Under the pieces are notes generated by a model that worked only from the letters and a program-made list of their open reading frames with translations, was not told the DNA's origin and did no database searches. Positions 18,878 to 51,481 of a DNA stretch of 64,000 nucleotides are shown here, piece by piece. Each line of letters begins with the position of its first letter. The first letter of the stretch is position 1. The translations under genes and the position numbers were made by a program. Source of the DNA: Chloroflexus sp. Y-396-1 (GTDB taxonomy: Bacteria > Chloroflexota > Chloroflexia > Chloroflexales > Chloroflexaceae); NCBI RefSeq assembly GCF_000516515.1, contig NZ_KI911784.1, positions 62,001-126,000 of the forward strand, in the 5' to 3' direction.

Positions 18878-20095
18878 GTGCAATTCTTACTCACTAATAC
18901 TACTGTAGTATTACCTGATCGAGTCATTGAAGAGGGCTGGGTTGTGATTGAACGCGGGCACATCAGCGCCGTCGGGCGAGGTTTACACCCACGCAGTGCA
19001 ACGATTCCCCAACTCGATCTCGCCGGTGCGTATCTGCTCCCTGGCCTGATCGACCTGCACTGTGACGCCATTGAAAAGCTGGTACAACCACGCCCCGGTG
19101 TCGAAATTGAAATCGGTATTGCGCTGCACGCCGCCGACCGTCTCTTGCTCGGCTGTGGCGTTACTTGCCAGTTCCATGCCCTTTCACTCGATGATGCTGA
19201 ATTTGGAGTACGCAGTGACCGTTTTGTTCATGACTTTCTCTACCGTCTGACGACAGAGCAACATTGCGGGGCACGTCATCTCGTTCATGCCCGTGTCGAG
19301 ATTAGCAGTCAACGCGGCCTTGAAGCACTAAAAACGATGCTGGGACATCCACTTGTACGGTTGGTGTCGATCATGGATCACAGCCCAGGACAGGGACAAT
19401 ACACGACTGAAGCGGCATTTCGAGCGTATGTTGCCCAGACGACAGGCCGCAGCGCGACAGAGATTGATGAAATCTTGCACCGCAAACGGGCTGCGCAGAA
19501 AGACCTTCCTGAACGGATCAAACACGTCATTGAATGGGCTACTCGACATGGATTACCGGTCGCCAGCCACGATGACGACACTCCAGAAAAGGTGGCCCAG
19601 TGGGTTCAGTATGGAGTACGGATTGCCGAATTTCCCACCACATTGCGCGCTGCGCATGCTGCACACGCTGCCGGGATGGCAGTGGGAATGGGGGCGCCGA
19701 ATGTATTACGCGGGAAATCGAGCGGCGGTAACCTGAGTGCGTTGACCGCGATTGAAGCCGGTGTTGTCGACTGGCTCTGCGCTGACTATTATCCGGCCTC
19801 GCTCTTGCCGGTGATCTTTCGACTAGCTGACCGTGGGACGCTCAGTTTACCTGCTGCTGTAGCATTGATCAGCCACAACCCAGCACGGGCAGTTGGTCTC
19901 GATCATCTGATCGGAAGCATTCAGCCCGGTCGCATTGCTGATCTGATCGTTGTGCGCCGCATGCCCGATCCAGTAGTACAACAGGTCTTTGTAGGAGGGC
20001 GACCGGTCTACACTTGGGCCGAGCACATCGAGCCGTTACCCTTTACCGGTCACCATCCGCTGCCCAACCACCTGACGCCACCACATAGCGATTGA
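18878..20095 (+). CDS. phnM: Alpha-D-ribose 1-methylphosphonate 5-triphosphate diphosphatase
   Basis: 405 residues, GTG start with GAGGAAAG upstream. This amidohydrolase-superfamily protein removes pyrophosphate from the 5-triphosphate intermediate to give the PhnJ substrate. The metal-site region 'LLPGLIDLHCDAIEK' has the H-x-D variant typical of PhnM, followed by 'SIMDHSPGQGQY' and 'VASHDDDTPEKV'. The last 60 bases overlap the 3' end of a minus-strand membrane-protein gene. phnN, phnP, phnO and phnF are not found in this window, so the last catabolic steps and regulation must be encoded elsewhere or done by other enzymes. Confidence 0.94.
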   Translation: MQFLLTNTTVVLPDRVIEEGWVVIERGHISAVGRGLHPRSATIPQLDLAGAYLLPGLIDLHCDAIEKLVQPRPGVEIEIGIALHAADRLLLGCGVTCQFHALSLDDAEFGVRSDRFVHDFLYRLTTEQHCGARHLVHARVEISSQRGLEALKTMLGHPLVRLVSIMDHSPGQGQYTTEAAFRAYVAQTTGRSATEIDEILHRKRAAQKDLPERIKHVIEWATRHGLPVASHDDDTPEKVAQWVQYGVRIAEFPTTLRAAHAAHAAGMAVGMGAPNVLRGKSSGGNLSALTAIEAGVVDWLCADYYPASLLPVIFRLADRGTLSLPAAVALISHNPARAVGLDHLIGSIQPGRIADLIVVRRMPDPVVQQVFVGGRPVYTWAEHIEPLPFTGHHPLPNHLTPPHSD

Positions 20096-20548
20096 CACGA
20101 ACGACCAACGGACAAGACCTTCAGGGCCGATAGCAAAGAGGAGTGCCAGCGAGATACCGCTCAACCAGCGTCCCCATTCTGGAGGTGGTTGACCATCAAT
20201 CGATAGCATACCAATGTAGCGAATACTGTAACCGTTGAAAATCCCGCTAGCCTCCAGGCCCACCACTGCTAGCCAGAAGACGAGGGCTGGAATACCCCAT
20301 TGACGGGTAAGAGTGCCAGTCGGCCAGAAGAGTAATTTGACCAGACTACTCAGGACGTACCCGACGCCAAGAAGAATGATTGTTACGAAACCACTGCTCT
20401 GTAAGGTGGAAATGAGCCAGATCACGAATCGCTGAAATCCTTCGTTATGACCAAGGAGCCATTCAGTGATCCAGATACTGCGCTCAAACCACCACCAGCC
20501 AGCCAGTGGGAGAAACACTACTGCTAATGCACATTTGAGATGCAGCAT
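20036..20548 (-). CDS. Small integral membrane protein of unknown function
   Basis: About 171 residues with four or so hydrophobic segments ('ALAVVFLPLAGWWWF', 'FVTIILLGVGYVLSSLVKLLF', 'WGIPALVFWLAVVGLEASGIF', 'GISLALLFAIGPEGLVRWSF'). I chose ATG 20548 over the longer frame to 20641 because candidate -10 sequences (TATACT/TATGAT on the minus strand, about 20585-20600) and the left end of a MITE-like element lie in between. No strong ribosome site is visible. The gene converges on phnM and overlaps its last 60 bases. I recognise no family. Confidence 0.5.
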   Translation of the reverse strand: MLHLKCALAVVFLPLAGWWWFERSIWITEWLLGHNEGFQRFVIWLISTLQSSGFVTIILLGVGYVLSSLVKLLFWPTGTLTRQWGIPALVFWLAVVGLEASGIFNGYSIRYIGMLSIDGQPPPEWGRWLSGISLALLFAIGPEGLVRWSFVSIAMWWRQVVGQRMVTGKG

Positions 20549-20590
20549 AGGATAGAGAGTGAAGACCTCGTAATTGTACAGGGTATCATA

Positions 20591-20812
20591 GTATAGTATG
20601 ACTCCACTGCAAAAAGGTGATCTTTCCACCACAGAGATCACGGAGATCGCAGAGACTAAAGATAATGTTATCTTTCATTGAACATAGGGTTGTGACAATT
20701 GTTCTTACAATGCGCCCAATGGCCAAAAATGATCCTTTTATTCATAAACCTTACACGCTCTGTGTACTCTGTGTGCTCCGTGGTACGTTTTTGCAGTGCA
20801 CTCATAGTATAC
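20591..20812. mobile_element. MITE-like element, 222 bp, with long imperfect terminal inverted repeats
   Basis: The left arm begins GTATAGTATGACTCCACTGC (20591 on) and runs to 20654. The reverse complement of the right arm begins GTATACTATGAGTGCACTGC (from 20812) and runs to 20758. The first 28 bases match at 24 positions. The inner parts, ACCAC(A/G)GAG with repeated CAC(A/G)GAG units, match at 20 of 27. The core holds a small AAAGATAA/TTATCTTT hairpin and no gene. Target duplication is not evident. No transposase is nearby, so movement would need one elsewhere in the genome. Confidence 0.65.
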
Positions 20813-20949
20813 AGCATTTCGATTGAGAGTATCTCAGCGCCTACGATCTGACGTGATACCCGAATCATTGTTCCGATACCAGATGGCTGCAATATCCAAT
20901 CGCTGATACTGATTGCATTTGTGATCAGCGGTGTCAATCGTACAACCGC

Positions 20950-21048
20950 ATCAACGGTATCAACGGAACAAACAGAATTGACGCGACGGGCGCAACGGAC
21001 GTGACGGACGTGACAGACTCAATGGACGCGATAGGCGCGACAGGCGGT
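20950..21048 (+). repeat. Degenerate 9-bp tandem array, 11 units
   Basis: Successive nonamers read ATCAACGGT, ATCAACGGA, ACAAACAGA, ATTGACGCG, ACGGGCGCA, ACGGACGTG, ACGGACGTG, ACAGACTCA, ATGGACGCG, ATAGGCGCG, ACAGGCGGT. It is non-coding on both strands as far as I can see and leads directly into the hairpin at 21050. Confidence 0.75.
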
Positions 21049-21049
21049 A

Positions 21050-21074
21050 GGGGCGAAAAAATTTTTTTCGCCCC
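21050..21074. repeat. GGGGCG...CGCCCC hairpin (second dispersed hairpin family, copy 1)
   Basis: GGGGCGAAAAAA is followed by TTTTTTTCGCCCC, a near-perfect palindrome with an A/T centre. Related hairpins flanked by GTAG or CTAC-like bases occur at 36917 and 53830. From 21075 to 21336 I see only an imperfect hairpin near 21227-21258 and no gene. Confidence 0.65.
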
Positions 21075-21336
21075 GCCCTCGTGCCATCGCCCCATCCTAG
21101 CGTCGCGGCATCACCCCTGCTCTGGTACCGTACCGACGGAACTTGATTCCACCCCTACCCCCTGCTTGGGCAAGGCCAATCGCGTACCTTGGGACGCAGG
21201 CCAGAAATTCACGCACTTAGTTAAGTAGCGTAAGAGATCATCACTGCTCTTATGCGCTCGTGCACAAAGTACAAAGGCAAGAGTTTCCCCTGACAGGTCG
21301 GTTAGTCGCCGCTGCGCAGTCTTGGGGATAAATTCC

Positions 21337-21345
21337 TGGTATAAT
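21337..21345 (+). promoter_or_regulatory. Extended -10 promoter
   Basis: TGGTATAAT is a TGn-extended -10 element. It lies 50 bases before the ATG of the small membrane-protein gene; no -35 box is visible at the standard distance. Confidence 0.55.
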
Positions 21346-21395
21346 AAAGAATAAATATATCTTCTCGTAAGCGATACCTTGGAGATGCAGTTCCT

Positions 21396-21809
21396 ATGTC
21401 TGCCATAACTGACACACTTGATCGAATGTTTGATCGCTTACTGTTCCTGCCGCCGCAACCATCTGCACCAGAAGTCGTAATCACTGAAGAGACTGTTGAA
21501 GAAGAGGTCGTACCGGCCACACCTGGCGAGCGAGCTTTCAGCCTCTCACTCTTTATTTCGGCAACTCGTTGTACCCTGCAATATGTACTCTTACCAATCG
21601 TATTGCCATTGATCGGACTGACAACCGACATCTCGCTTCCCCTGGTCATTCTCCTCGATCTGCTGGCAATCGCCATGCTAGTGCGCAGTTTGCGCTACTT
21701 CTGGCAAACACGCCATCCACGTCGGTTTGATATGCTGCCTCTTTCCGGTGTTATCCTCTTCATTATTCTCTTCTCGCTAGGATTCGATCTCTGGCAACTA
21801 TTGAGCTAA
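21396..21809 (+). CDS. Small membrane protein of unknown function
   Basis: 137 residues. An acidic cytosol-like N-terminus ('VVITEETVEEEVV') precedes three hydrophobic segments: 'LQYVLLPIVLPLIGL', 'ISLPLVILLDLLAIAMLV' and 'MLPLSGVILFIILFSLGF'. Between the second and third is a short basic loop (RYFWQTRHPRRFD). ATG 21396 lies 50 bases downstream of an extended -10 promoter. It is followed by a 157-base gap before the GGDEF-EAL gene on the same strand. I recognise no family and cannot predict a role. Confidence 0.6.
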   Translation: MSAITDTLDRMFDRLLFLPPQPSAPEVVITEETVEEEVVPATPGERAFSLSLFISATRCTLQYVLLPIVLPLIGLTTDISLPLVILLDLLAIAMLVRSLRYFWQTRHPRRFDMLPLSGVILFIILFSLGFDLWQLLS

Positions 21810-51210: not shown

Positions 51211-51481
51211 GGGAGCGCGAGCCTCCGGCTCGCATCCTGCACCGTGCCCAGCTCAGCCGCACACCGTCGCCCCGTGACTCTCCATAGGCAAGGCGAAGAA
51301 CTCACCCCTGCTGATGAAGATGCTCCTCCCGCCGTCTGGTCTCATAACCACCGTCACCTGGGAGCGCGAGCCTCCGGCTCGCATCCTGCACCGTGCCCAG
51401 CTCAGCCGCACACCGTCGCCCCGTGACTCTCCATAGGCAAGGCGAAGAACTCACCCCTGCTGATGAAGATGCTCCTCCCGC
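51211..51481 (+). repeat. Direct duplication: two identical 122-bp copies, period 149
   Basis: Copy 1 is 51211-51332 and copy 2 is 51360-51481; reading them in parallel I see no difference. The 27-base spacer (51333-51359) and the bases before copy 1 are similar but diverged (GTTTGGTTTCATA against GTCTGGTCTCATA). Each copy holds a GCGAGCC-TCC-GGCTCGC hairpin. No gene is evident. Confidence 0.9.

Follow-up and report, generated by a model that had tools for sequence, protein, structure and literature searches.

A multi-copy MITE in Chloroflexus with the terminal inverted repeats of an IS1182-related transposon of other Chloroflexota

Introduction

What is the repeat at positions 20591-20812 of the window, how did it come to be there and which enzyme could have moved it? 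The window is the whole 64,000-nucleotide stretch of the Chloroflexus sp. Y-396-1 genome analysed here, and in it two imperfect inverted arms carrying CAC(A/G)GAG units face each other beside a small putative membrane-protein gene. The original prediction was of a MITE-like element. That reading is borne out by the many copies of the repeat, by their target-site duplications (TSDs) and by a transposase with common ends, found in other Chloroflexota.

Results

The window repeat is a 206-bp MITE

The window repeat is a real MITE and not a chance palindrome, because copies recur and mostly carry 4-bp TSDs in an A-N4-T / CA-N4-TG target. Aligned together, 36 copies (35 from the same genome and one from G042, which we take to be Roseiflexus sp. 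RS-1) have a mean column identity of 90% and define a unit of about 206 bp that starts with TGA and finishes with TCA (Table 1). The window copy, 206 bp with 17-bp ends, has no gene-sized ORF in its interior. The inverted arms drawn across 20591-20812 are real, but the element is shorter than their full extent: the outermost bases are host sequence, including the TAGTA duplication in a near-palindromic site. Both predicted arm blocks were recovered, as an outer pair of 28 bp each (20591-20618 / 20785-20812; 86% complementary) and the inner CAC(A/G)GAG pair. Single-strand folding of the repeat gave z = -4.4, and none of 200 shuffled sequences folded equally well. A mechanical minus-strand ORF (20668-20937) runs through the MITE and yields a TEHTEYTE peptide, a typical spurious repeat-derived protein.

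Table 1. Coordinates, in window positions, of the MITE, its parts and the neighbouring ORFs.
Feature	Position	Strand	Basis and remarks
MITE, TGA...TCA, 206 bp	20599-20804	+	Alignment of 36 copies; TSD analysis
Left target-site duplication, TAGTA	20594-20598		Flank comparison; 5 bp here, 4 bp in most copies
Right target-site duplication, TAGTA	20805-20809		Flank comparison
Left terminal inverted repeat, TGACTCCACTGCAAAAA	20599-20615	+	End-pattern search; common to IS1182-related elements
Right terminal inverted repeat, TGAGTGCACTGCAAAAA on minus strand	20788-20804	-	End-pattern search
Left inner arm, CAC(A/G)GAG-type units	20628-20655	+	Sequence reading
Right inner arm, CAC(A/G)GAG-type units inverted	about 20756-20784	-	Sequence reading
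170-aa membrane-protein-like ORF, ATG at 20548	20036-20548	-	ORF list; no Pfam match
137-aa ORF	21396-21809	+	No Pfam match

Copies are abundant in this genome and recur in related lineages

A BLAST search of the genome (G000; 4.89 Mb, one contig) gave at least 49 strong matches: 38 lie at places of their own, and the other 11 are parts of two tandem arrays. This is a lower bound, since scoring covered 40 of 71 first-look candidates. The end pattern TGANNYCACTGCAAAAA, with 2 mismatches allowed, matched 67+61 times against 3+6 for a reversed control, and on its own added 13 sites (several with a second core, some composite) to the at least 40 from full-length matching. A single copy would have spoken against a MITE; instead more than 50 sites are occupied, the proposed BLASTN comparison recovered copies in this genome, and comparison of their flanks revealed TSDs. 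In the tandem arrays (L034, 4109-5107; L039, 4515-5260), successive MITE cores of 166 bp are fused at GGTGA, the outer ends being lost between units; one array has a single pair of ends with CCTT on either side.

Among 158 genomes of the class, only three have the end-plus-arm pattern in abundance: the window's genome (22+23 matches), G042 (31+30) and G054 (20+25); G005 and G082 have single matches. G056 abounds in elements that combine these ends with a different interior (end matches 91+92). A wider scan of a species-genome collection for CA-N4 followed by the end returned 49 stretches, 48 of them in Chloroflexi MAGs or named members (the phylum of the named genera is our own placement) and one in a Paludibacteraceae MAG. 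The 25 stretches inspected, namely the 24 that come from genomes other than the CALGYB Roseiflexus MAG and one viral match, comprised 19 paired short elements, one paired 1777-bp element and five solitary ends. Solitary matches lacking a partner end (G082, L206, L209, L230) were treated as chance.

Elements of 1316 bp between terminal inverted repeats in G042, considered as autonomous copies, proved to be MITEs interrupted by an IS110-type element. IS110-type transposase genes lie within the MITE arms at L070, L071, L072 and L077 (DEDD_Tnp_IS110 in L070), and their apparently identical position in several copies suggests that the MITE is the target of a site-specific IS110 element.

Insertion duplicates 4 bp and re-creates the target

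Exact 4-bp TSDs flank 30 of 52 elements in the window's genome, against 0.63 expected from pairing the left flank of one copy with the right flank of another; five of the 52, the window copy among them, have a 5-bp TSD (0.2 expected). Elsewhere, exact 4-bp TSDs were seen in 6/13 elements of G042, 7/17 of G056 and 1/7 of G054, with 0.25, 0.25 and 0.17 expected, respectively. These counts include parts of composite elements and leave out several copies of the window's genome in which one end matched at fewer than 14 of 17 positions. Elements with an exact 4-bp TSD have A at flank position -5 in 41 of 44 cases and T at +5 in 40 of 44, while CA is present in 22, TG in 24 and one or the other in 38. 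Because the element starts with TGA and finishes with TCA, both junctions again read (C)A-N4-T(G) after insertion, and this re-created target may favour nested and side-by-side copies. At L134, two elements lie 4 bp apart and their outer flanks match (AACA/AACA), which suggests that both travelled together as one unit.

The same ends bound an IS1182-related transposase in other Chloroflexota

A transposase sharing the MITE ends, as the original prediction had envisaged, was found in other Chloroflexota and not in the window's own genome. L185, from a Pelolinea sp. MAG, is the 1777-bp element; its ends match at 17/17 and 14/17 positions and enclose ORF1, a DUF772 protein, and ORF2, a DDE_Tnp_1_6/DDE_Tnp_1 protein, both with Pfam matches above cut-off. 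Among NCBIfam models, ORF2 matches IS1182 best (1.8e-26), although the score of 93 bits, obtained on half of a protein split in two ORFs, falls below the curated cut-off of 270; we therefore call the element IS1182-related and not a settled IS1182 member. By eye, solitary ends at L169 (Pelolinea sp. MAG) and L175 (HGW-Chloroflexi-2) run into a matching transposase start.

A search of 400 genomes of the phylum found relatives of L185 ORF2 at E <= 1e-20 in four genomes and none in the window's genome. In G400 (L231), ends matching at 17/17 and 16/17 positions lie 1887 bp apart around the relative, with flanks whose TSDs do not match; in G457 and G320 one 15/17 end lies just downstream of the gene, and the fourth genome, G472, has no such ends. 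The background for an end match of 15/17 or better is 1 in 464,550 positions, and the true value is lower since the sample includes L139, whose 17/17 end is a real MITE end. A PF13751 match is absent from G000, G005, G042, G054 and G056. Viral contigs searched with ORF1 gave no match, and plasmids held no close relative of the transposase, only proteins of <60% identity (best about 33%).

DDE_Tnp_1 (PF01609) proteins were also considered as partners and rejected: none of 30 loci taken from 73 matches in four genomes is bounded by MITE ends, and the sole full-score match is an IS5-like element inserted next to a MITE end. At L139 (G056:C175, about 210-1108) an IS5-like element, with ends that we take to be of IS5/IS1031 type, abuts a MITE end.

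The site is empty in six congeners

The MITE lies about 50 bp 5' of the minus-strand membrane-protein-like ORF, in agreement with its predicted position, and a longer call of this ORF, to 20641, begins inside the element. The suggestion that it supplies a promoter is not supported: 20500-21400 contains one promoter-like site against 1.6 expected. Six congeners (G001, G002, G003, G004, G005 and G007) align on both sides of the site and lack the MITE there, since their spacers are about 206-316 bp long compared with about 840-880 bp of query; a search of the seventh, G006, with the site gave no match. G005 is the only congener with an element of this kind, a single copy of another subfamily. Between one G042 copy and one copy of the window's genome, identity reaches 95.4%; copies within the window's genome average 92% among themselves. 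This identity points to horizontal passage between the lineages, in either direction, which would be the simplest reading of the sequence comparison.

The inner arms vary by lineage

The CAC(A/G)GAG-type unit pair is absent from both transposase-bearing copies with two ends (L185 and L231). Short elements carry it in 42/43 cases in the window's genome, 13/13 in G056, 10/10 in a Thermoflexus MAG, 2/2 in 626A.7 and 1/1 in G005; it is less complete in G054 (5/7), G042 (4/11), S1bins192 (0/4) and an Ardenticatenaceae element (0/1), and shuffled interiors gave 0. Arm units vary by lineage (CACAGAG, CGCAGAG, CACGAAGG/CACAAAGG, CGCAAGG), and the two arms of an element remain complementary. Over 30 chosen elements the mean complementarity score is 23.1 within an element and 11.8 for shuffled arms; the between-lineage score of 20.2 is inflated by related lineages, so that this comparison is confounded by relatedness. 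Within the family of the window's genome, 1 of 40 predicted pairs shows a double change. With almost no covariation there, arm pairing is seen between lineages and selection for it is not proven.

Similar arms flank GxxExxY genes

The window's genome has a single GxxExxY gene (PF13366 PDDEXK_3, 6.8e-46). At this locus (L052; G000:C1:4040385-4043735), tandem arrays of CACAGAG hairpin units at 1278-1494 and 1908-2192, with periods of 77 and 92, flank the gene on both sides. GxxExxY genes are carried by 50 of 82 genomes of the order, and from all matches in these we took the 30 top-scoring loci, one per genome (L052 and L241-L269). Near flanks contain the unit pair at 18 of the 30 loci and far flanks at 3, compared with 0 of 44 control loci. 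When no unit was assumed, the 450-bp flanks were complementary above the shuffled maximum at 27/30 loci, compared with 1/27 for far flanks and 1/43 for controls, these being the numbers of loci that could be measured. Plasmid-borne GxxExxY loci of other phyla gave 4/8 by the same measure (Bernardetia, Bacteroides finegoldii, Gemmatirosa and Sphingomonas).

These loci resemble the window MITE in having inverted arms of 8-10-nt units, often starting ACCAC and with the same polarity, but differ from it in carrying a gene and in showing no MITE-type ends; 29 of the 30 fall within the background end sample, whose total count is 1. Arm units also mismatch within a genome: G042 has CACGGATG around GxxExxY and CGCAGAG in its MITEs, while G056 has CACAGAG around GxxExxY and CACGAAGG/CACAAAGG in its MITEs. 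Because MITE ends are absent from the inspected GxxExxY loci and the arm units differ, we do not claim that GxxExxY mobilises the MITE directly.

Discussion

We consider it very probable that the window repeat is a non-autonomous DNA transposon whose ends, TGANTYCRCTGCAAAAA, derive from an IS1182-related DDE transposon of other Chloroflexota that moved it in trans. On this account the 17-bp ends would be those of the transposon itself, its transposase would have moved the short element into A-N4-T / CA-N4-TG targets with a stagger of 4 bp, and mobilisation in the window's genome would be historical or would have come from outside. The copies there are probably stranded at present, because this genome has no PF13751 match; three MITE-rich Roseiflexus-type genomes also lack one, and their copies likewise look orphaned. 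The inner arms may be a separate, exchangeable hairpin module outside the transposon ends. The nature of the repeat is thereby settled and a candidate transposase named; it is an orphan MITE at more than 50 sites, with its likely enzyme found only in distant relatives.

The main competitor is another DDE transposon, so far unseen; its ends would be the source of those on the MITE, and the IS1182-related element would resemble them by convergence. The window's genome has no partner, the shared sequence is just 17 bp, and 4-bp duplications occur in other transposon families too. Such convergence is nevertheless improbable given that relatives of a single transposase carry these ends in at least four genomes against so low a background, and that the 30 loci from 73 PF01609 matches in four genomes yielded no other partner. 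The hairpin, the intergenic position and the tandem arrays would also suit an extragenic palindrome, REP/BIME-like or of another type, that owes its spread to recombination or a REP-associated enzyme and not to a DDE transposase. REP/BIME repeats lack target-site duplications and have a RAYT partner; the precise ends and 4-bp duplications seen here make this reading very unlikely. Hardest of all to credit is a role of the repeat in the adjoining gene, whether as regulatory RNA or as promoter element: the hairpin and its place 5' of the minus-strand ORF are in keeping with one, but Rfam gives no match up to E = 1, covariation is nearly nil, the promoter scan is at chance level, copies are dispersed in the genome and six congeners that retain the neighbouring sequence lack the element here.

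Derivation from an IS1182-related transposon has precedents. Archaea are already known to harbour MITEs that belong to IS1182 elements and have 4-bp repeats: those listed for ISMac2 in Methanosarcina acetivorans measure 160 bp with a direct repeat of 4 and 169 bp with one of 0 (PMC3852290). Like the window MITE, these short elements of about 160-170 bp are multi-copy, with inverted ends, an IS1182 partner and, in one case, 4-bp repeats; they differ in their archaeal host and 25-26-bp ends. ISPse1, listed as an IS1182-family element with inverted repeats of 16/16 and a 4-bp direct repeat (PMC3281130), resembles the proposed MITE source in its IS1182-type transposase, 16-bp ends and 4-bp repeats, but is autonomous whereas the window MITE has no gene. 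The 4-bp direct repeats of ISPse1 and of one ISMac2 MITE, an IS1182 trait, are thus matched by the window family. IS1272, placed with IS1182, shares the importance of palindromic features; it replaces target stem-loops and leaves no duplication (PMC5678879), whereas the window family leaves one of 4 bp. Within the open-licence PMC literature, the only match for Chloroflexus MITEs was a Porphyromonas study, by title, and nothing was found on a Roseiflexus MITE with a transposase.

The arms tie the MITE to a widely annotated nuclease-like gene, GxxExxY, for which open-licence PMC papers yielded no description of a function or of a link to inverted short-unit arms. Tentatively, the two could be nested mobile systems, in which the inner arms are the boundary or hairpin module of GxxExxY (PDDEXK_3) cassettes, an unrecognised element type present in several phyla, and an IS1182-type MITE repeatedly captured gene-less versions, perhaps as GxxExxY nucleases or the hairpins aid copying, tandem expansion or survival. 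If GxxExxY and the inverted short-unit arms do form one element, a common annotation artefact (TEHTEYTE-type repeat peptides) and an unexplained gene family would be jointly explained.

Elsewhere in the window, 51211-51481 is a perfect tandem duplication (period 149, 1.8 copies, 100% match).
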